IMG/VR virus record: IMGVR_UViG_3300044618_000855
Span: 1 to 38,293 of that record
Source of the DNA: a virus
DNA: 38,293 nt
Direction: 5' to 3' (one strand)
Shown: piece by piece, positions 2,379-20,291 of the stretch
Numbering within the stretch: the first letter of the stretch is position 1
Layout: every line of letters begins with the position of its first letter
The notes under the pieces: model-generated
What the model saw: only the letters and a program-made list of their open reading frames with translations
Told to the model about the DNA's origin: nothing
Database searches by the model: none
Made by a program: the position numbers and the translations under genes

Positions 2379-3914
2379 ATGGACATCTTCAAGACGCTGT
2401 TGTTGGACACTCCCGTGTCCACGGCAATTAGTGGCACCGTAGCCGTCAATCAAGGTGGCACCGGGGCTACTACTGCCGCCGATGCGCGAGTTAATTTGCT
2501 GCCCTCTTATACGGGTAATGCAAATAAGGTGCTAAGCCTTAACTCTGGGGCAACGGATGTCGAGTGGACTACGAACGGTGCTGGCACCGTAACGAGTGTT
2601 GATCTCACGGCTGGTACGGGCATTAGCGTGTCTGGTGGGCCAATTACTTCCACGGGCAGCATTACCGTAACCAACACGGCTCCAGACCAAACGGTGGTTC
2701 TTACGGCGAGCACGGGCATCTCGACTTCTGGGACTTATCCCAACTTCACGATTACCAATTCTGCGCCAGATCAGACAGTGGTTCTAACGCAGGGCGGCAC
2801 CACCACCATCACGGGAACCTACCCCAACTTTACGATTTCGTCTGCCGATCAATATAAGGGTACGGTAACTAGTGTTGATTTCTCTGGTGGCACTACGGGC
2901 CTAACGGTTTCTGGCAATCCGATTACCAGCAGCGGAACCATCACCCTTGCTGGTACGTTGGCGGTAGCCAATGGCGGCACGGGCCTAACCTCTGGCACGT
3001 CTGGCGGTGTTTTGGCCTTTACGGCAAGCGGCACCCTAGCCTCGTCCAGCGCATTGGCGTCCAATGCCATTGTTGTTGGCGGCGGTGCTGGAGCCGCGCC
3101 ATCCACCATCACTACGGGTACTGGCGTTGTCACCGCTCTAGGGGTCAATACAGGCACGGCTGGCGCGTTTGTGGTTAATGGTGGTGCTTTGGGTACTCCT
3201 AGCTCGGGAACGGTTACCAATCTCACGGGAACGGCCTCTATCAACATCAATGGAACCGTAGGCGCGACCACCGCTAACACGGGCGCGTTTACAACGCTTT
3301 CTGCGTCTAGCACGGTGAGTGGTACGGGTTTTTCTACCTACCTCGCCTCGCCTCCTGCAATCGGCGGTACTGCTCCTGCGGCTGGTAAGTTTACGACCCT
3401 TGAGGCTACGGGTGTTACCACCGTCTCTGCTGGCACCGTTTCGGCCCCAGCTATCACCACTACGGGAGATACCAACACGGGCATCTTCTTCCCGGCGGCT
3501 GACAACATGGCCTTTACGGAGGGTGGTGTAGAAGTCTTTCGTATTGAGTCCAATGGTCGTTTTGGACTTGGACAAACCTCCCCGGCCACCAAGTTTGACC
3601 TGTCTGGCAACTATGGTCAGAATATTGTAGCTGTCGCCGCACTCGACATTGATTGCTCGGCTGGTAACTACTTCACCAAGACGATCAACGCAAACAGCAC
3701 GTTCACGTTTTCAAACGCTCCGGCCTCTCGCTCTTATGCGTTCGCTCTTGAACTGACGCACACGTCAGGCACCGTGACTTGGCCGACCGCTGTGAAGTGG
3801 CCCAAGGATACGGCCCCAACTCTGACCACGGGCAAAACCCACATCTTTATCTTTGTAACTGACGATGGTGGCACACGCTGGCGCGGTGCTGCACTTGTAG
3901 ACTACGTTAACTAA
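2379..3914 (+). CDS. tail fibre protein 1 (repetitive beta fibre)
   Basis: This 511-residue protein is very rich in Thr, Gly, Ser, Val and Ala. It carries repeated motifs such as GTVTSVD, GTYPNFTI, APDQTVVL and ANGGTG, typical of trimeric phage fibre shafts. Near residues 310-350 is a block (FTTLSASSTVSG, STYLASPPAIGG) found twice or more in the second fibre at 7287-8078. A stretch with TTTGDTNTGIFFP and GLGQTSPA is common in aquatic phage fibres. The last about 95 residues, from LDIDCSAGNYFTKTI to WRGAALVDYVN, are a domain almost the same as the end of the second fibre, and probably form the receptor-binding or trimerising tip. Confidence 0.88.
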   Translation: MDIFKTLLLDTPVSTAISGTVAVNQGGTGATTAADARVNLLPSYTGNANKVLSLNSGATDVEWTTNGAGTVTSVDLTAGTGISVSGGPITSTGSITVTNTAPDQTVVLTASTGISTSGTYPNFTITNSAPDQTVVLTQGGTTTITGTYPNFTISSADQYKGTVTSVDFSGGTTGLTVSGNPITSSGTITLAGTLAVANGGTGLTSGTSGGVLAFTASGTLASSSALASNAIVVGGGAGAAPSTITTGTGVVTALGVNTGTAGAFVVNGGALGTPSSGTVTNLTGTASININGTVGATTANTGAFTTLSASSTVSGTGFSTYLASPPAIGGTAPAAGKFTTLEATGVTTVSAGTVSAPAITTTGDTNTGIFFPAADNMAFTEGGVEVFRIESNGRFGLGQTSPATKFDLSGNYGQNIVAVAALDIDCSAGNYFTKTINANSTFTFSNAPASRSYAFALELTHTSGTVTWPTAVKWPKDTAPTLTTGKTHIFIFVTDDGGTRWRGAALVDYVN

Positions 3915-3919
3915 TATCT

Positions 3920-5029
3920 ATGGATCCTAACGTTATCAAACTTGCGATGGGTGCTGGTGGCGCTGGTGAGAAAGAGTATGACCTGTATGCTTGGGGATAT
4001 AACGGACTTGGTCAACTTGGCCTTGACGACACAACCAGCCGTTCATCACCAGTACAAGTCGGTGCATTAACAACATGGGACAAAGTTGCGTCCGGCAGGC
4101 TCCACAGCATAGCGATTAAAACGGATAGGACGTTGTGGATTTGGGGGCTTAACAACTTCGGTCAACTCGGCCTAGGAGATGTAACCGATCGTTCATCTCC
4201 TGTACAAGTTGGAGCGTTAACAACGTGGAACAACGTTGCGGGTGGCTTTAGTCACACAATAGCCACTAAAACCGATGGGACATTGTGGGCTTGGGGGTTT
4301 AACAGCTTAGGTCAACTCGGCCTAGGAGATGTAACCGATCGTTCATCTCCTGTACAGGTTGGAGCGTTAACTACTTGGAGTAAAGTTGCCTGTGGCAAAG
4401 AACACAACATAGCCACTAAGACAGACGGAACATTGTGGGCTTGGGGGTATAATTTTCGCGGTCAACTGGGCTTAGGAAACACAAGCAATCGTTCGTCTCC
4501 GGTACAAGTTGGGGCGTTGACAACATGGAGTAATATTGCGTGTGGTCGCCTTCATACCATAGCCACTAAGACAGACGGAACTTTGTGGGCTTGGGGACGT
4601 AACAACTATGGTCAACTTGGCCGAGGAACCACAGCAGACTATTCATCACCACTTCAAGTTGGTTCGTTAACAACATGGGACAAAGTTGCGTGTGGTCGCT
4701 ACCACACAATAGCCACCCAAACGGACGGCACGTTGTGGGCTTGGGGGCGTAACAACTTCGGCCAACTTGGCCTTGAAGATGTAACCAGTCGTTCGTCTCC
4801 TGTTCAAGTTGGTGCATTAACAACATGGAACAAAGTTCAAAGTGGAGATGCAAACATTATAGCCACTAAAACTGACGGAACATTATGGGGTTGGGGAAGT
4901 AACATCCAAGGCCAACTAGGTATAGGAACTACAACCAATCGTTCGTCTCCTGTTCAAGTTGGTGCATTAACGACTTGGAAAAACATAGCGTGTGGGTACT
5001 CACACACCATCGCCACTACAGAGGAGTAG
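3920..5029 (+). CDS. RCC1-repeat beta-propeller protein (seven blades), putative receptor-binding tip
   Basis: The 369-residue protein has a short Gly-rich start and then seven 50-residue repeats, each with WxWGxNxxGQLG, SSPVQVGALTTW, and GxxHxIATKTDGTL. Seven blades match the usual number in the RCC1 propeller fold. Fold-typical Gly, His and Trp positions are kept in nearly all blades; blade 6 lacks the His (DANIIATK). RCC1 repeats mediate protein or ligand binding and occur sporadically in bacteria and phages. The gene begins five bases after the first fibre and precedes the sulfotransferase fusion. A tail-tip adhesin is the best guess. Its base composition looks more AT-rich than the capsid genes. 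Confidence 0.85.
   Translation: MDPNVIKLAMGAGGAGEKEYDLYAWGYNGLGQLGLDDTTSRSSPVQVGALTTWDKVASGRLHSIAIKTDRTLWIWGLNNFGQLGLGDVTDRSSPVQVGALTTWNNVAGGFSHTIATKTDGTLWAWGFNSLGQLGLGDVTDRSSPVQVGALTTWSKVACGKEHNIATKTDGTLWAWGYNFRGQLGLGNTSNRSSPVQVGALTTWSNIACGRLHTIATKTDGTLWAWGRNNYGQLGRGTTADYSSPLQVGSLTTWDKVACGRYHTIATQTDGTLWAWGRNNFGQLGLEDVTSRSSPVQVGALTTWNKVQSGDANIIATKTDGTLWGWGSNIQGQLGIGTTTNRSSPVQVGALTTWKNIACGYSHTIATTEE
3986..5020 (+). repeat. seven tandem 150-bp coding repeats (RCC1 blades)
   Basis: The period is exactly 150 bases from one Trp codon pair to the next. Some copies are nearly identical at DNA level: the segment from about 4158 to 4222 recurs at about 4308 to 4372 with only a couple of changes, including third-codon positions. 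This indicates recent duplication or gene conversion between blades, and makes blade-number variation by recombination possible. Confidence 0.9.
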
Positions 5030-5072: not shown

Positions 5073-6851
5073 GTGAACAACAACTTGACCAAGAAGCTGC
5101 ACTTCTTGTCTGGCCTGCCGCGTTCTGGATCAACGGTACTTGCGGCAATTCTTAACCAGAATCCGCAAACGCACGTTTCAACTACCTCTGGTCTTGGTGC
5201 TGCGCTTGATGCGTTGGCAACAACGTGGCACCGCGAGCCGCTGCTAGAAAAGAACGACCGCGACCGGAAGAAACTAGCCAACGCAATGCGTGGCTTGATT
5301 CACGGGTACTACGACGAGATCACGTCGAAGCCCGTTGTGATTGATAAGGCACGCAATTGGCCGCTCCCAGTAGTTGTATCTGCAATGGCTCAAGTGCTAG
5401 GCCACAAACCGCGTATCATCGCCACCGTTCGTAGCGTGCCAGACTGCATGGCATCGTTCGTCCGCGTAGCAAAGCCAGAAAACCTAGACGACTTCATCCA
5501 GCAGTCAGGACTTACGGCGCACCTAAAATCGTCCTATCAGGTCTTGCAGGCTGGCTATCAAGCCGACCCAGAGTGCTTCCTATTCGTAGAATACGAAGAC
5601 CTTTTAGCTGATCCGCGAACTCAGCTCAAACGCATCCATAACTTCCTTGGTCTTGATCCGTTTGAGTACGATCTAGAGCGCATTGACGGCTCTACCGTCA
5701 AGGAGGACGACGAGGGAATTCATGGCGTAGCTGGCCTACACGACATTAAGCCCAAGCTGGCTAGGCAGCACAATGAATCGGCAAAGGATATTCTCGGCTA
5801 CCACTACGGGCAATTTTGCCAGCCTGAGTTTTGGCTCCCAAAGCCGCGCACTATTGTTCCTTTAGACGATCTTGATCTACAGCTTGCAGCCTCTACAATG
5901 GGCAACTTTGAGGAAGGCAAGCGCATTGCTGAAAAACTCAAGGCAGAGCGTTCCAATGACCACCGCGCAGCCTACAACCGTGGCTGGTACGAACTGCGTG
6001 ATGGCAACATTGAAGAGGGCTACAAGCTCCTTCATCGTGGACGCAAGGTAGGTGTATTTGGCAATAGTCAACCGAAAAGTCCGCAGCCTGAGTGGAATGG
6101 TAGCAGCGGCCACACCATCCTGCTTCAGCTAGAGGGCGGCTTGGGAGATCAGCTTCACCAGCTACGCTACACCCGCAATCTGCGGTCAAACGGTTACAGT
6201 CCTATCGTTAGCTGCTCTGGTGAGCTAGTGCCATTTATCGCCTCTACGGAACTGGCTGATGCCGTAGTGCAGCATGGCGCGGAATATGGGGTATTCCACG
6301 ACTATTGGATGTCTGGAATGTCTAGCCCTATGTACCTCGGGCTAAACCGTAGATCCATCCAAGGAGACGCATACATCCACACCGACTTTACTGTTCCCAA
6401 TAAGAAGCTTCGGATAGGTTTGCGCTGGTCTGGCAACAAGACCTTTGAGGCCCAACATCACAAGCTGTTCCCAGCCCAGTTGTTTTTTGATGCCGTCAAA
6501 CGCGACGACGTAGAGTTCATCTCCCTCCAGCGGGATGCCGACCTAGAGTTTAAGCCTAGCTGGGTGCAGGATGTTCCCCTTCAGACATGGCATGACACCC
6601 ACAAGGCAGTTAGCTCCTGCGACCTAGTAATTAGCTCCTGCACGTCCGTAAGCCATCTTTCTGCGGCTATGGGGGTTCCCACTTGGGTTGTCATCCCAAT
6701 TATGGGGTATTATCTGTATGCCGAACCCGGCAATAAAACGCCCTATTACAACTCTATGCGGTTGTTTCGCCAACAGAAGTATGGCGATTGGACCCACCCT
6801 TTTGAAGAAATTAAGAGCCTAAACTATTCCCATGAACTACTGCTTCGTTGA
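5073..6851 (+). CDS. sulfotransferase - TPR - glycosyltransferase (GT9/GT41-like) fusion protein
   Basis: This is a 592-residue, GTG-started protein. Residues 1-260 form a P-loop-like sulfotransferase: the 5'-phosphosulfate loop is LSGLPRSGST (12-21), the 3'-phosphate motif is RIIATVRSVPDCMASFVR (114-131), and YEDLLADPRTQL (174-185) is typical of the family. Such enzymes move sulfate from PAPS to sugars or proteins. Residues about 268-330 look like one or two TPR helices pairs. Residues about 345-590 resemble the GT-B fold: LEGGLGDQLHQL (353-364), GLRWSGNKTFE (449-459), and CDLVISSCTSVSHLSAAMG (516-534), the nucleotide-sugar site of GT9 and GT41 enzymes. No good ribosome site precedes it. It could modify host glycans or the phage fibre. 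Confidence 0.85.
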   Translation: MNNNLTKKLHFLSGLPRSGSTVLAAILNQNPQTHVSTTSGLGAALDALATTWHREPLLEKNDRDRKKLANAMRGLIHGYYDEITSKPVVIDKARNWPLPVVVSAMAQVLGHKPRIIATVRSVPDCMASFVRVAKPENLDDFIQQSGLTAHLKSSYQVLQAGYQADPECFLFVEYEDLLADPRTQLKRIHNFLGLDPFEYDLERIDGSTVKEDDEGIHGVAGLHDIKPKLARQHNESAKDILGYHYGQFCQPEFWLPKPRTIVPLDDLDLQLAASTMGNFEEGKRIAEKLKAERSNDHRAAYNRGWYELRDGNIEEGYKLLHRGRKVGVFGNSQPKSPQPEWNGSSGHTILLQLEGGLGDQLHQLRYTRNLRSNGYSPIVSCSGELVPFIASTELADAVVQHGAEYGVFHDYWMSGMSSPMYLGLNRRSIQGDAYIHTDFTVPNKKLRIGLRWSGNKTFEAQHHKLFPAQLFFDAVKRDDVEFISLQRDADLEFKPSWVQDVPLQTWHDTHKAVSSCDLVISSCTSVSHLSAAMGVPTWVVIPIMGYYLYAEPGNKTPYYNSMRLFRQQKYGDWTHPFEEIKSLNYSHELLLR

Positions 6852-7275
6852 AAACGGCGTTATTGCCGATGGCCCCCGTGGACTTCCCCGTTCATGGCGT
6901 AATATCTCTGGCCTTGACCAGATGGATGATGATGGGCTTCGAGAGCTTGGTTGGCTTCCAGTACGCCTTGTGGAAGGTGATGTTCAGGAGAAGTTTGTTG
7001 GCTCTATATTTGCCATTCTTCCTAGTGAGGTGGTAGAGACTAAGATTTGGCGTTCGTACACCCCTGAAGAGCAGGCCGAGATTGATAGCCAGAAGGCTAA
7101 GCAAGTCCGCTCTGAGCGTAATACCAAGCTAACTGAGTGCGATTGGACCCAGCTTAACGACACGCCGCTGGACAATACCGCCAAGATTCAATGGACGGCC
7201 TACCGTCAGGCTCTCCGCGATGTTCCCTCTCAGGCAGGGTTTCCGCATAATGTAGTTTGGCCCACAAAGCCTTGA
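6832..7275 (+). CDS. tail fibre assembly chaperone-like protein
   Basis: The 147-residue protein starts 20 bases inside the preceding gene, so its translation may depend on it. Its C-terminal half has the recognisable tail-assembly pattern: a charged helix RSERNTKLTECDWTQL, then LDNTAKIQWTAYRQALRDV and FPHNVVWPTKP. This is the arrangement of phage tail-assembly chaperones (pfam Phage_tail_APC type) that are encoded next to fibres and help their trimerisation. It lies directly before the second fibre, supporting that job. The N-terminal half is less conserved and may bind the specific fibre. Confidence 0.8.
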   Translation: MNYCFVENGVIADGPRGLPRSWRNISGLDQMDDDGLRELGWLPVRLVEGDVQEKFVGSIFAILPSEVVETKIWRSYTPEEQAEIDSQKAKQVRSERNTKLTECDWTQLNDTPLDNTAKIQWTAYRQALRDVPSQAGFPHNVVWPTKP

Positions 7276-7286
7276 TATACTAAGTC

Positions 7287-8078
7287 ATGGCTCAAATTCA
7301 AAAAGGCACCACCTACGGGACGACCTCGCCGTCGAACCTAGTTAGCTCGACCAATCTCAATAATCATGTTGATGATGCGGTGCTTTTGCCGGGAGCCATT
7401 ACCGATCAAACTGCCAAGGTGGTTCTTGCTGCGGCTGACACCGTATTGGTTCATAGCTCAGCCGATACGGCTTTGCGAAAAACCACGATGGCTCAGGTGT
7501 TTGCAACCCCACAGCCTATTGGTTCTAGCACAGCTAGTTCTGGTGCGTTTACCACGCTAAGTGCATCTTCAACTGTTAGCGGAACTGGATTTTCTACCTA
7601 CCTAGCATCTCCCCCAGCTATTGGCGGAACTGCTGCTGCTGCTGGTTCTTTTACGACCCTTAGCGCATCAAGCACAGTAAGCGGAAACGGATTCTCTACA
7701 TATTTAGCTTCACCACCAGCAATTGGTACAACTACTGCGGCTGCTGGCAAATTTACGAGCCTTGAGGCAACAGGGCAGTACAAGGGGTCGGTTACGGCCA
7801 TCACCCTTCTGGATATTGATTGCTCGGCTGGCAACTACTTCACGAAGACCATTAACGGCAATTCCACCTTTACGTTCAGCAACGTACCCAGCGGCGCGTA
7901 TGGCATGATTGTGGAGATCGAAAATACGTCCGGCACCATCACTTGGCCTGCTGCGGTTAAGTTTCCCAATGACACAGCTCCTACGCTTAGCACGGGCAAG
8001 ACCCATGTTTTCGTGTTCATCACGGACGATAGCGGTAGCCGTTGGCGTGGTGTGGCTGCGGTAAATTACGTTACTTAA
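7287..8078 (+). CDS. tail fibre protein 2, paralogue of fibre 1
   Basis: The product has 263 residues. A short N-terminus with TYGTTSPSNLV and DDAVLLPGAITDQT precedes two to three copies of a 36-residue block (FTTLSASSTVSG, STYLASPPAIG) and ends in the same about 95-residue domain as fibre 1, from LDIDCSAGNYFTKTI to GVAAVNYVT. The DNA of the two C-terminal domains is also alike, with long runs of identity around 7812-7840 and 3645-3675. A TGATATACT element (7273-7281) resembles an extended -10 box directly before the start. It probably forms a short side fibre or an alternative receptor-binding protein. Confidence 0.85.
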   Translation: MAQIQKGTTYGTTSPSNLVSSTNLNNHVDDAVLLPGAITDQTAKVVLAAADTVLVHSSADTALRKTTMAQVFATPQPIGSSTASSGAFTTLSASSTVSGTGFSTYLASPPAIGGTAAAAGSFTTLSASSTVSGNGFSTYLASPPAIGTTTAAAGKFTSLEATGQYKGSVTAITLLDIDCSAGNYFTKTINGNSTFTFSNVPSGAYGMIVEIENTSGTITWPAAVKFPNDTAPTLSTGKTHVFVFITDDSGSRWRGVAAVNYVT

Positions 8079-15795: not shown

Positions 15796-18700
15796 ATGCC
15801 CACCTACAGGGTTACCGACAGCAAAACTGGCGTTACGCTTAATCTTACCGGGGACAGCCCTCCTACTGAAGAAGAACTGGAGGAAATCTTTTCTCAGTAT
15901 TCTGCTAATCCAGAAAAAGAAGAGGACAGTAAGATGTCCTCAGTTGCGCGTATTGCCGCAGACATAGGTATTGAAACTGGTGGAGCCTTGGCTGGTGCAG
16001 CGGCTGGTGCATCTATTGGTGCTGCCCTTGCTCCTGCAAGCTTTGGAGCATCTGTTCCTGTTGGTGCTATTATTGGCGGCGTTGTTGGTGGACTTGGTGG
16101 CAACACCATTGTCCAACGTGGACAGATTGAGCGTGGCGAACGTCCTGAGTTTTCCTATGGTGAACTAGCAGCTACTGGTCTTTTGTCTGCTATTCCCGGC
16201 GGAACGGGTGCTAAAGCCGGAACCTCATTGGCTCGCAATCTTGCTTTGCGTTCTACTCAGGGTGCCGCCCTTGGTGGCGCGGCTGAGATTACCAAGACTG
16301 TTATTGACCAGAATCGCCTGCCTACCGCACAAGAATTTCTTACTGCCACCATCTTTGGCGGTGCTATGGGTGGTGCTGTTGGCGGCGCAGAGAAAGGAAT
16401 TAGTAAGGCTATCTCCCTAACCCCAGAGGCTAAGTTGGGCAAGCTGATGCCTGTCATTAAGCGGGTTGCTGGCGAACAGTCGGCTCTTGCCTTTGAAGGG
16501 GAGGTTGCTGTCCGCAATCTTAAGGATGCGCTTGGTGATATCAAAGATAAGGTAGAACGTGACCGTATTTCCTCTGTTGCATTTGATGTGCTTGAGGGAA
16601 GACCGCATTCGACCAATCTGCCTAAGCCTGTTGCCGATGCTGTTTCTCAGGTTCGTGGAACCATCGATACGCTTAGCGAAACCCTACAGGATCGTGGCGT
16701 TGTTGAACCGGGAAGTGGGTTATACAACACGATTACGGATAATCTAGGTCAGTATATCCGTCGGTCCTATCGTGCTATTAATAGCGACTGGAAGCCTTCT
16801 GCCGAGGTATTTAATAGGTGGGTAGACACGAAGGTTCGCGAAGACCTTGAGCAACGCCTGCGTACCCGCATGGCGAACAACATCATCATTGGCCGCAACA
16901 AGATCGTTGAGGGCAAGCCGTTCAACATTCAAACGTATTACAATAAGCTCAAGAGTGAGTTTGAGCCAGAGCTTCGCCAGAAATACATCAATGAAGCTAG
17001 TAAGCTTCTTGACCGGGATAACTCTTTTGCCTTCGCGATTGGTGATAAGGCTAAGGTAGACACCAACATCTTTAAGCAGCGCAAGAATTTAGATGCTGTT
17101 ACTAGAGAGCTACTTGGGGAAATTAAAGATCCCGTGTATGCAGCTAGTAACACCATCAACATGATGACCAAGACTCAGGCTGTTCACGAAGTGAATAAGC
17201 AGATTCGTGACGTCGGTCTACAGGCTGGTTTGTTTAGGACTAATGCGCGGCAGATGGCAGAAGGAATGGCTCCTGATGTTGAGCTTTCTACCGATCAGTC
17301 TAATTACAATCCCCTTAAGGGTTTGTACACTACGCCAGAGATCCGCGAGGCATTTAGGAGTATGACCTCAGAAACAACCAGCAAACTAGCTGAGCGTTTC
17401 GGTATCATTGCTTCAGCCTCTGCTGCGGTTAAACTTCCAAAGACTCTTGGATCGCTTAAGGGCTATGCGTCTAATCTCTGGGGTGGAGTAATGGACACTC
17501 TTGCCCAAGGGCATGGCTTGGAGTTCTTCCGCACAAACAACTGGAAGCGTGCTGGTCAAGTAGCTGGTTATAACTTGGGCTTTATCCGCCCAGATGGAAC
17601 TGTTGATAACAAAGAGGCTACGGAGTTTTTCAAGTTTGTAAGACGCGAAGGATTGGTTGCGCCTAACGTACAATTTGGCGACTTCATGCGTACCTTTGAG
17701 GCTGGCGAAAAGTCTGTGGCTGCTGCTCTTCCCAAAGAAGTTTTGGATAGGGGCAAGAAAGGCATTCAGCTTCTTGGCAAAATCTACTCCACGCCAGAAA
17801 CTGCATCCAAGGTGTTTAACCTAGCTGGAGAGTTTGCTGATTTATCCAAAGCTTTTCCAAATCAAAGCAAACAGGAATTGCTTAAGCAAGCTGCAGAGCG
17901 CGTTAAGCTAACCACGCAAGACTACGATTCGTTGCCGCGATTCCTCAAGGATTTCTCTAGCATTGGATTCCTAGATCCATTTGTTGCCTATACGGCAGAC
18001 CGATTCCGTGTGGTATACAACACCTATAAACTGGGGATGAGGGATCTTGCTTCAGATAATGCAGCTCTCCGATTGGCTGGTGCTAAGCGTCTTGCCTCTA
18101 TGACTGCTGTGCTTGGTGGTGCTGGCTATGTTGCGGCAAACACCAACCTAACTCCCGAACAGGATAAGGCTCTACGCAATCGTATGCCCGAATGGGACAG
18201 GAATGGCTTTGTGTCCATCTCTTCTCCCGGTGCCGATGGCTCATTTAAGTACACCAATCTAAACTACAACCTGCCACACTCCTCTGCTATTGAAGCCATG
18301 ACGGCTGCAATGCGCGGACAGAACCCAGAGGAAGCGTTTACCAACTTTATGACTAGCATTGGTAACCAAGCATTTGGTGCCAATCTCTTGCTTGCTCCTC
18401 TTTCACAGGTGGTTAGTGGTAAGAATCGATATGGGCTTCCAATCTCTAGCGAGAATGAGCCACTCTACAGACAGACCTTTGATCGTTCAACGTATTTTAT
18501 GGGGCAAACTATGATGCCTCTCGTTGTTGGCGAGGTTCGTAAATTCTTTAATGCTTTGGACAAGAGTGGAGAAAAGATTGTTACTCCCGCTGGCGATACA
18601 TACGGCGTTAAGGAAATCATGCTAGAGAACCTTGCTGGTATCCGCGAGAAGACCATTAATATTGGTGACCGTATGCGTCTAAATGCATCTATCATTAGCC

Positions 18701-19308
18701 GTAATCTATCTGAAGATCAGATGGCTTATGCCTCTGGTAAGCGACGTGCATTAACGGAACAAGACGCTCAGGATGTCTATAATACTTTTGAGCGTCGCTA
18801 TCAGAATACCTTTAACCGTGCTACTGAGTTGGTTGCTGATGGTCGAGCTATTGGCCTAGAAGATGATGACTTGGTTACGCTAATGAAAGCTGGTCGCATT
18901 CCAAGTTCTATTGCTCTCGGTGCAATTACTGGAGTGTATGTTCCTCCTGCTGTGGAAGAACAGAATCCTACTCGCGTTATCTACGAGAAGATTGAAAGCC
19001 TGCCAGAGAATCAGCGCAGGGCTGCTGTCGAGAAGGCTGCTCGCGAGAACCCAACCATTGGTCGCAATCTAATCAACCGCTATCGCCAAGACCTACGCAA
19101 CAAGGCGTTGAACATCAGCGAAGTGGACAAGCTGCTGTTGTCTCAGGATGAGGCCGATGGAGACCGTGCTCGCTTCATCTTCCAGAAGATGCAGACGCTA
19201 CCAGATGACCTGATGCGTACTGCCTACTTGGAAGATCTGCGCAAGAAGCGAGTGATTACCCCTGTGGTTAACGCGCAGCTTAACCTGTTGATGAACCCGC
19301 CCCGTTAG
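15796..19308 (+). CDS. large internal virion (ejection) protein with Gly-rich hydrophobic segments
   Basis: This is the longest gene, 1170 residues. The N-terminus (YRVTDSKTGVTLNLTGDSPPTEEELEEIF) is a short module I recall from large virion proteins of other podoviruses. Residues about 55-105 and 135-205 hold Gly/Ala-rich hydrophobic stretches (GGALAGAAAGASIGAAL, GAIIGGVVGGLGGN) suited to membrane insertion. The rest is helical, ending in a basic tail region. Unlike T7 gp16 there is no transglycosylase motif at the N-terminus. It should form part of the channel for DNA entry. Its stop overlaps the convergent phosphoesterase stop by four bases, ending the late unit. Confidence 0.78.
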   Translation: MPTYRVTDSKTGVTLNLTGDSPPTEEELEEIFSQYSANPEKEEDSKMSSVARIAADIGIETGGALAGAAAGASIGAALAPASFGASVPVGAIIGGVVGGLGGNTIVQRGQIERGERPEFSYGELAATGLLSAIPGGTGAKAGTSLARNLALRSTQGAALGGAAEITKTVIDQNRLPTAQEFLTATIFGGAMGGAVGGAEKGISKAISLTPEAKLGKLMPVIKRVAGEQSALAFEGEVAVRNLKDALGDIKDKVERDRISSVAFDVLEGRPHSTNLPKPVADAVSQVRGTIDTLSETLQDRGVVEPGSGLYNTITDNLGQYIRRSYRAINSDWKPSAEVFNRWVDTKVREDLEQRLRTRMANNIIIGRNKIVEGKPFNIQTYYNKLKSEFEPELRQKYINEASKLLDRDNSFAFAIGDKAKVDTNIFKQRKNLDAVTRELLGEIKDPVYAASNTINMMTKTQAVHEVNKQIRDVGLQAGLFRTNARQMAEGMAPDVELSTDQSNYNPLKGLYTTPEIREAFRSMTSETTSKLAERFGIIASASAAVKLPKTLGSLKGYASNLWGGVMDTLAQGHGLEFFRTNNWKRAGQVAGYNLGFIRPDGTVDNKEATEFFKFVRREGLVAPNVQFGDFMRTFEAGEKSVAAALPKEVLDRGKKGIQLLGKIYSTPETASKVFNLAGEFADLSKAFPNQSKQELLKQAAERVKLTTQDYDSLPRFLKDFSSIGFLDPFVAYTADRFRVVYNTYKLGMRDLASDNAALRLAGAKRLASMTAVLGGAGYVAANTNLTPEQDKALRNRMPEWDRNGFVSISSPGADGSFKYTNLNYNLPHSSAIEAMTAAMRGQNPEEAFTNFMTSIGNQAFGANLLLAPLSQVVSGKNRYGLPISSENEPLYRQTFDRSTYFMGQTMMPLVVGEVRKFFNALDKSGEKIVTPAGDTYGVKEIMLENLAGIREKTINIGDRMRLNASIISRNLSEDQMAYASGKRRALTEQDAQDVYNTFERRYQNTFNRATELVADGRAIGLEDDDLVTLMKAGRIPSSIALGAITGVYVPPAVEEQNPTRVIYEKIESLPENQRRAAVEKAARENPTIGRNLINRYRQDLRNKALNISEVDKLLLSQDEADGDRARFIFQKMQTLPDDLMRTAYLEDLRKKRVITPVVNAQLNLLMNPPR

Positions 19309-19317
19309 TTTAGGGCG
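19298..19317. terminator. weak hairpin at the convergence of the two operons
   Basis: CGCCC (19298-19302) and GGGCG (19313-19317) can pair across the overlapping stop codons of the late and early units. There is no T run on either strand, so this is at best a weak or factor-dependent site. No other terminator lies between the two operons, and read-through antisense RNA is likely. Confidence 0.3.
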
Positions 19318-20291
19318 CGGCCATTAACGATACGGTAGTTAGCCACCTCGTAATAGCTGCCGTCTAGGGTGACGATGGCAGACCCGTGGTTATAGCTGTT
19401 GTATGGGCTATAAGCGGGGTGCAGGTCCGAGAGGCACCCTACGCTCCAAGTGGTGGTCATCGTCCCGTCTAGGGCCGTTTCCGTGTGCTCTGAGGTACGG
19501 TGATGGTGGCCGACCATGACACTCTGCTTGGCCTTCAGATAGGCTCCGCGAGCAGGATTCACCGGGGGTGCGAAGCCCTTGTGGAACTCATGTCCATGCA
19601 TCACAGCTAGTCCACCCAGCATGATGATGCGCTTGTCGGTGACATACTCAATGTCGAGATCCTCAAAGTTGAGTAGCTTGTCGATGGAGAAGAACTTCTC
19701 ATCATACACCTCGGGAGCCTTCTGCATCATGTAAGCCTTGAAGCGGTCCTCATGGTTGCCGTCGCGCCACACAATGCGCTGATGAGGAAACTGCTCCCGT
19801 AGATAGGCCAGTAGCTCGTTCGTGGTCTCCCGCTCTTGTTTGAAGGATCGAGCGCGGGGATCTCGGATGAACTGAGAAAGGGCATGGCAGTCGATGGTGT
19901 CGCCGTTGAGGATGATCCCGTCCACCTCCTGCTTCTTAGCACGCTTCACCGCGCACTCAATGGCCTCTTCCGTATGATAGGGAACGTGGATGTCAGACAG
20001 GATAGCCACCTTCTCCACCCCGTCCATGATGAAGGGGGACCAAGCGCGGGTGCAGGACTTGGGGATCTTGTACTTGGGCGTGACGTTCTCATCCAGCCCA
20101 ACACTCTTACGCTTCTTGTCACCGTTGGCTCCACGACGATAGCGGATTGCGCTCCGCACCACATCTTGACTGGTGAAGACAGTTGGGTTCTCTTTGTAAA
20201 TCATGCGAGCCAACTGGTTGCTTGGCAGATCGGGATAAAGCCTAAGTGCTACGTCTACAATTTCGGATCCAATGGGGTTTTGTGTGCTCAT
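19305..20291 (-). CDS. calcineurin-like metallophosphoesterase
   Basis: The 328-residue protein has all metal-binding motifs of the family in order: SDIH (D100, H102), GDTID (130-134), GNHED (179-182 region), HGHE (232-235), and GHHH (261-264). These bind two metal ions and hydrolyse phosphodiesters or phosphomonoesters. The first about 90 residues are extra: a helical region (DVALRLYPDLPSNQLARMI, TSQDVVRSAIRYRRG) that looks like a DNA-binding HTH. It is the last gene of the early operon and overlaps the upstream gene by four bases. A role in nucleic-acid processing is likely; the substrate is unknown. Confidence 0.9.
   Translation of the reverse strand: MSTQNPIGSEIVDVALRLYPDLPSNQLARMIYKENPTVFTSQDVVRSAIRYRRGANGDKKRKSVGLDENVTPKYKIPKSCTRAWSPFIMDGVEKVAILSDIHVPYHTEEAIECAVKRAKKQEVDGIILNGDTIDCHALSQFIRDPRARSFKQERETTNELLAYLREQFPHQRIVWRDGNHEDRFKAYMMQKAPEVYDEKFFSIDKLLNFEDLDIEYVTDKRIIMLGGLAVMHGHEFHKGFAPPVNPARGAYLKAKQSVMVGHHHRTSEHTETALDGTMTTTWSVGCLSDLHPAYSPYNSYNHGSAIVTLDGSYYEVANYRIVNGRALN

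Follow-up and report, generated by a model that had tools for sequence, protein, structure and literature searches.

The window, i.e. the whole stretch of 38,293 nucleotides that was analysed, is an IMG/VR virus record of a freshwater phage. The closest relative of its major head protein and its terminase is phage C75C1, and a megablast search with the first 25 kb matched no phage isolate. The gene under study belongs to a tail-fibre operon with genes for a fibre, an RCC1 repeat protein, an enzyme with a sulfotransferase (ST) and a glycosyltransferase (GT) domain, a Tfa chaperone, and a second fibre (Table 1). The stop codon of the RCC1 gene lies 43 nt ahead of the enzyme start, and the Tfa gene overlaps the enzyme gene by 20 nt. 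The RCC1 protein also matches phrog_4219 (E=9e-56). The two fibres have a C-terminal domain family in common; both genes also contain internal repeats, and recombination between the two is possible. A scan for promoters and terminators yielded three promoter-like sites, fewer than in shuffled sequences. Elsewhere in the window, a metallophosphoesterase gene (19305-20291, minus strand) is located just after a long structural gene (15796-19308).

Table 1. Features of the tail-fibre operon and, in the last line, of a second fusion gene on other contigs (x/y, rows of the alignment with the residue)
Feature	Position	Strand	Residues or length	Evidence or remark
Tail-fibre gene, upstream of RCC1	2379..3914	+	511 aa	phrog_9017 tail fiber, E=2e-14
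RCC1 seven-repeat beta-propeller	3920..5029	+	369 aa	Pfam WD40_RLD, E=6e-114; seven RCC1 repeats
ST-TPR-GT fusion gene	5073..6851	+	592 aa	GTG start; single ORF without internal stop
ST domain	5073..5837	+	1-255	Pfam PF13469, E=4e-17; phrog_27463, E=7e-45; Foldseek TPST2
PRSGST, 5'-phosphosulfate loop of the PAPS site	5118..5135	+	16-21	R17, S18, G19 in 41/41 ST rows (A2)
Lysine of the IDKxRxW motif	5346..5348	+	K92	39/40; aligned to the TPST NKDPF segment
3'-phosphate site of PAPS	5430..5456	+	R120...S128	R120 40/40, S128 39/40
TPR-like stretch	5856..6092	+	262-340	Two helical hairpins at 266-324; model, alignment A3
GT-B N-terminal half, presumed acceptor side	6105..6392	+	345-440	Most variable enzyme part
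GGLGDQLH loop, position of the GT9 catalytic Asp	6135..6158	+	D359	51/51
GT-B C-terminal half, donor side	6408..6848	+	446-592; SCTSxxH 522-528	T524, S525, H528 51/51; fold
Tfa-like tail-fibre assembly chaperone	6832..7275	+	147 aa	Pfam PF16778, E=2e-27
Second fibre gene	7287..8078	+		phrog_9017, E=2e-12
Bifunctional GT8-GT9 fusion	L193:3474-5090, L199:6081-7700, L203:5663-7255			Downstream of RCC1

Integrity and domains of the fused enzyme

An initial annotation of this DNA had described one gene of 592 residues, and the ORF is present as described and uninterrupted. The position of its GTG start is retained in most close relatives; no clear Shine-Dalgarno motif was seen just upstream, so that the exact start is unproven. 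An assembly chimera, or a stop codon between the domains, had been named as a finding that would speak against the fusion. Both are excluded, because two further IMG/VR contigs carry 100% identical copies, and relatives of the protein are encoded by 179 stretches. In the relatives that were examined, the junction is open and the lengths are nearly equal to that of the window gene. From public viral contigs of environmental origin, 144 full-length ORFs with the same domain order were recovered, which form 36 clusters at 85% identity; this count takes in overlapping loci from the same contigs. The sole fusion seen to be split (L271:4224-6047) consists of two ST pieces followed by a GT frame, possibly due to a frameshift that would reflect either an error or real decay. 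The expectation that phages seldom carry these domains fused therefore has to be divided: it agrees with the isolates, since none among 50,697 phage records covered 80% of the query, but not with viral contigs from the environment, where the fusion is common.

By profile, fold and predicted site residues, residues 1-255 are a PAPS-dependent sulfotransferase. The Pfam family Sulfotransfer_3 (PF13469) covers residues 11-195 with 63.6 bits, compared to a cut-off of 27, and phrog_27463 matches residues 6-254. The best solved fold is that of tyrosylprotein sulfotransferase 2 (TPST2, 3ap3; Foldseek E=9.5e-9), and the profile of the ST alignment A2 matches TPST1 (E=1e-9). The PAPS motifs noted at the outset are thus borne out by a profile score above the cut-off and by the conservation of both phosphate sites (Table 1). 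In TPSTs, the glutamate after the RSGTT loop is presumably the catalytic base. In one sequence alignment, it is absent from the window protein and the aligned segment, HVSTTSG, offers Ser/Thr and no acidic residue, and hence the ST half was not classed as a TPST.

The remainder of the protein was analysed with a structure model based on 54 diverse sequences, which has a mean pLDDT of 92.2 (an earlier model based on 17 close relatives had 56). The suggested TPR-like linker is visible in this model as four helices, i.e. two TPR-like hairpins. Stand-alone GT relatives start at the TPR stretch (alignment A3), and TPR and GT are therefore regarded as a single module, onto which, in the simplest reading, an ST was joined. 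Residues 345-592 form a GT9-like GT-B glycosyltransferase in the model, which matches WaaF, WaaC, a Veillonella GT9, SPINDLY, and TibC (the solved entries include 1psw, 2h1h, and 3tov). Sequence profiles are almost silent here and the fold carries the assignment: the GT part of the window protein has no Pfam match of its own, Glyco_transf_9 included, and this family matches 8 of 19 relatives weakly (best E=0.0023). The predicted fold and the invariant D359 and H528 agree with the GT9/GT41-like site of the initial annotation. Because both the ST and the GT-B folds keep intact cofactor- or donor-site residues, that annotation also withstood the structural comparison by which it had proposed to be judged.

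Association with RCC1 genes

To estimate how often the enzyme is paired with RCC1, the count was restricted to loci retrieved by enzyme queries, and the enzymes were clustered at 85% identity; loci fetched with RCC1 as query are unusable for this count and were left out. An RCC1 gene is located directly upstream of the enzyme in 38 of the 41 clusters and is present in the retrieved locus in every one of them, so that the transferase gene is always linked to a gene for a putative structural protein. The same is true for all 27 clusters of fusions. Tfa and the fibre C-domain are each located near the enzyme in 21 of 41 clusters, and the backbone genes g2050 and g8080 in 8 clusters each. The pair is found on unrelated backbones (L037, L045, L065, L078-L081, and others), and in L078 and L079 RCC1 genes are present on both sides of the enzyme. 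Because RCC1 is a near-constant neighbour while backbone genes are seldom near, the pair travels across unrelated backbones. Neither RCC1 nor the enzyme was seen in L112-L141, which are sister backbones at a greater distance; for several of them, the sequence covers the whole interval.

An alternative allele on the same backbone consists of a double-propeller RCC1 (~720 aa) and an enzyme that has the GT only (~328 aa). A rule that single propellers go with ST-GT and double propellers with GT only holds within the backbone of the window; it fails elsewhere and was therefore dropped. The reverse search from RCC1 yielded the same pair, an RCC1-ST pair with ST alone (L186), and split RCC1-GT-RCC1-ST sets (L167). 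ST and GT are also separate genes in the RCC1 loci of L195 and of the isolated cyanophage S-SRM01, which has RCC1-GT and RCC1-ST, and the marine virus AG-345-E08 has RCC1-ST with a GT nearby. An unrelated GT8-GT9 fusion is located directly downstream of RCC1 in three contig groups (L193, L199/L200, and L203). In the isolated cyanophage BUCT-ZZ01, a 14-repeat RCC1 of 700 aa, annotated as a BNR repeat protein, is followed by a GT-methyltransferase, i.e. a TPR-GT fused to a methyltransferase-like domain (L085:5857-7572). In L173, L174, and L202, whose RCC1 proteins are of the same subfamily, the gene downstream encodes an unrelated protein of low complexity, and the fetched flank shows no GT. No such enzyme is located beside the distant RCC1 genes of the Pseudomonas phage Ppr_SeaP1, the Marinobacter phage PS6, and the Brevibacillus phage Jenst.

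Nearly all blades of the linked RCC1 proteins contain a serine-serine-proline (SSP) motif, which is absent or almost absent in four distant phage RCC1s. It is a possible glycosylation acceptor as judged from this distribution. It was kept as a lead only, because it is confounded by the RCC1 subfamily and because some loci that lack the enzyme have it, too.

Every segment of the enzyme is under purifying selection, with a median dN/dS that is lowest for ST (0.03) and higher for the GT C-half (0.07) and the GT N-half (0.12), and the active-site residues are almost invariant across the relatives (40-41 rows in A2, 51 rows for GT). Within one backbone, the enzyme is a mosaic: within the gene, the identity to the window protein falls from 97-100% to 43-50% in some relatives and rises from 55-77% to 92-100% in others. 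For 22 loci of the same backbone, the median identity of the GT N-half is 67%, whereas the C-terminal half reaches 95%. Of all genes compared, RCC1 varies most (56%, versus 97% for the nearby g2050). This pattern would be expected of parts involved in host recognition. Coevolution of RCC1 with the enzyme was considered and dropped, because within one backbone the divergence of RCC1 barely tracks that of the enzyme (Spearman 0.13-0.28).

Bacterial genomes were scanned once with the GT profile. A Planctomycetota contig (L309) contains RCC1-GT among tail genes, which we read as prophage-like. RCC1-GT pairs were also found on contigs of Bdellovibrionales, a group with predatory members (L293, L299, and L303); in L293 and L303 they adjoin very large genes, which are fibre-like in L293. 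The bacterial assignment is uncertain because many such contigs were binned from metagenomes. The N-terminus is complete in three Bdellovibrionales RCC1 proteins, all of which carry signals of the twin-arginine (Tat) type (SRRDFLK, TRRGFIK, and TRRQFLE) and have a GT beside or near them. The Tat pathway exports folded proteins, and a Tat signal on RCC1 thus fits a modification that takes place in the cytoplasm first. These pairs may be related to the chimeric fibres reported for Bdellovibrio (PMC10769870).

Candidate substrates of the enzyme

Because the fused enzyme is real and its relatives almost always adjoin RCC1, the phage probably decorates its own host-binding parts with sugar that may be sulfated. 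The more specific proposal, i.e. that the enzyme adds sugar and sulfate to the RCC1 propeller of the phage itself or to a fibre bearing it, is read from gene sequences and has in our view roughly an even chance of being correct. The RCC1 gene of the window would then be the partner gene encoding the putative substrate, and the fibre gene upstream of it would encode an alternative substrate or carrier. The protein would be a soluble two-step enzyme, made alongside the tail genes and thus presumably late, and, prior to assembly, would modify RCC1, or a fibre tip carrying it, in the cytoplasm of the host. In one step, TPR-GT would recognise the propeller repeats and transfer a sugar, presumably from a nucleotide-sugar donor of the host. 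In the other, which presumably follows, ST would add sulfate from host PAPS onto the transferred sugar. The product would be a negatively charged glycan, presumably attached to a part of the virion that binds the host, and presumably of benefit to the phage.

The initial annotation had proposed either glycans of the host surface or the phage's own fibre or RCC1 protein as targets, and it is partly supported: the near-constant RCC1 neighbour across unrelated backbones, the replacement of the enzyme, in the same position, by different glycan-type enzymes, and the presence of RCC1 relatives in virions of another phage favour the virion. The latter argument is one of analogy, i.e. RCC1 proteins assigned to phrog_4219 were detected by mass spectrometry in virions of the E. 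coli phage W70 (PMC11370258). The joint absence of RCC1 and enzyme from the sister backbones L112-L141 also speaks for the same target, as do the near-invariant active sites together with dN/dS values of 0.03-0.12. So do the Tat-type signals on Bdellovibrionales RCC1 proteins near a GT, and the nearest solved folds of the model, which include the protein-modifying TPST, SPINDLY, and TibC. On the other side of the balance stand the missing coevolution signal within one backbone, the RCC1 genes without a GT in L173, L174, and L202 or without an enzyme in the distant phages, and the general point that gene adjacency alone is no proof of a substrate. A wider version, which we put forward tentatively, is a widespread, swappable module in which the RCC1 propeller is combined with ST-TPR-GT, TPR-GT, ST, GT8-GT9 or GT-methyltransferase to give the host-binding part of the virion a glycan coat of variable chemistry; Bdellovibrionales would use it likewise, with an exported RCC1.

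The host surface is a less probable target, though the strongest competitor of a virion target. Here, LPS or capsule would be given a sulfated sugar that blocks superinfection or the adsorption of progeny to debris, and RCC1 would be a receptor-binding gene that travels along and has the modified glycan as its receptor. The fold of the GT half is near those of the LPS heptosyltransferases WaaF and WaaC, the ST domain is weakly similar to the nodulation sulfotransferase NoeE, and linkage to a receptor-binding protein would keep the genes together as well. However, a gene in a tail operon would be expected to be expressed late, and the pair is present in Bdellovibrionales (in L293 by fibre-like genes), which have no obvious need for superinfection exclusion. 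It is rather doubtful that the two halves act separately, ST on tyrosines and GT on serines, be it of one protein or of different ones, so that the fusion would couple only their synthesis. The tyrosylprotein sulfotransferase fold of the ST half and the separate genes in L167, L195, and S-SRM01, or ST alone in L186, would fit this, but the presumed TPST catalytic-base glutamate is aligned with a Ser/Thr segment.

Slightly less probable again is the neighbouring tail fibre as substrate, with RCC1 as scaffold or co-factor. Fibre and Tfa genes do flank the pair in the window phage, and the fibre C-domain is near in 21 of 41 clusters; yet fibre or Tfa genes are recognisable in only half of the clusters compared to all for RCC1, and the enzyme is placed between two RCC1 genes in L078 and L079. 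A hypermodification of nucleotides or DNA with sugar and sulfate is very improbable. Phage transferases that co-occur with nucleotide genes have been proposed to act in this way (PMC10829341), but the gene and its relatives are located with RCC1 and often with tail genes, and a casual look at the neighbours revealed no base-modification genes.

Comparison with known systems

Mycobacteriophages glycosylate their virions with phage-encoded glycosyltransferases. Because this is known, the present finding would extend a known phenomenon: in mycobacteriophages, the glycans are on capsid and tail tube (Freeman 2023, as cited in PMC12619734), compared to a putative RCC1 target and a fused ST here. 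In the open-access literature searched, mostly titles, abstracts, and passages, no description of an ST-GT fusion or of its pairing with RCC1 was found, and while phage virion glycosylation as such is established, the ST-TPR-GT architecture and the pairing are apparently new. Phage annotations list RCC1 repeat proteins here and there as "regulator of chromosome condensation", which is misleading, and the pairing offers them a concrete, testable role as a glycosylated, possibly sulfated, and variable host-binding part. If this is true, virion glycosylation would be extended to abundant aquatic phages and sulfation would be brought to virions, and a compact ST-GT enzyme would have its natural substrate encoded next door.

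The ST genes of the Synechococcus phages S-SKS1 and S-SRM01 (Sulfotransfer_3/phrog_27463) share the PAPS-site motifs and the length, and in S-SRM01 RCC1 adjoins; there ST is a separate gene, in contrast to the GT-fused ST of the window. The BUCT-ZZ01 protein UTS52179 is a homologous TPR-GT (37% identity) directly downstream of RCC1, but its fusion partner is a methyltransferase-like domain, where the window protein has a sulfotransferase. The GT41 enzymes OGT and SPINDLY likewise have TPR followed by GT-B, and SPINDLY was matched by Foldseek; their long TPR superhelix is missing in the window protein, which has only about two TPR-like hairpins. The GT9 enzymes WaaC and WaaF as well as TibC share the GT-B fold and the conserved Asp in the GxGD loop, at 10-17% identity in structural alignments and without a significant GT9 profile match of the window protein, and they lack its TPR stretch and ST domain. 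We take autotransporter heptosyltransferases of the TibC type to have a cysteine iron finger, and no such CxxC finger is present in the sequence of the window protein. TibC glycosylates a protein encoded beside its own gene, and TibC-like protein glycosylation with adjacent genes for enzyme and substrate is the parallel that we propose, by analogy, for the mechanism outlined above.
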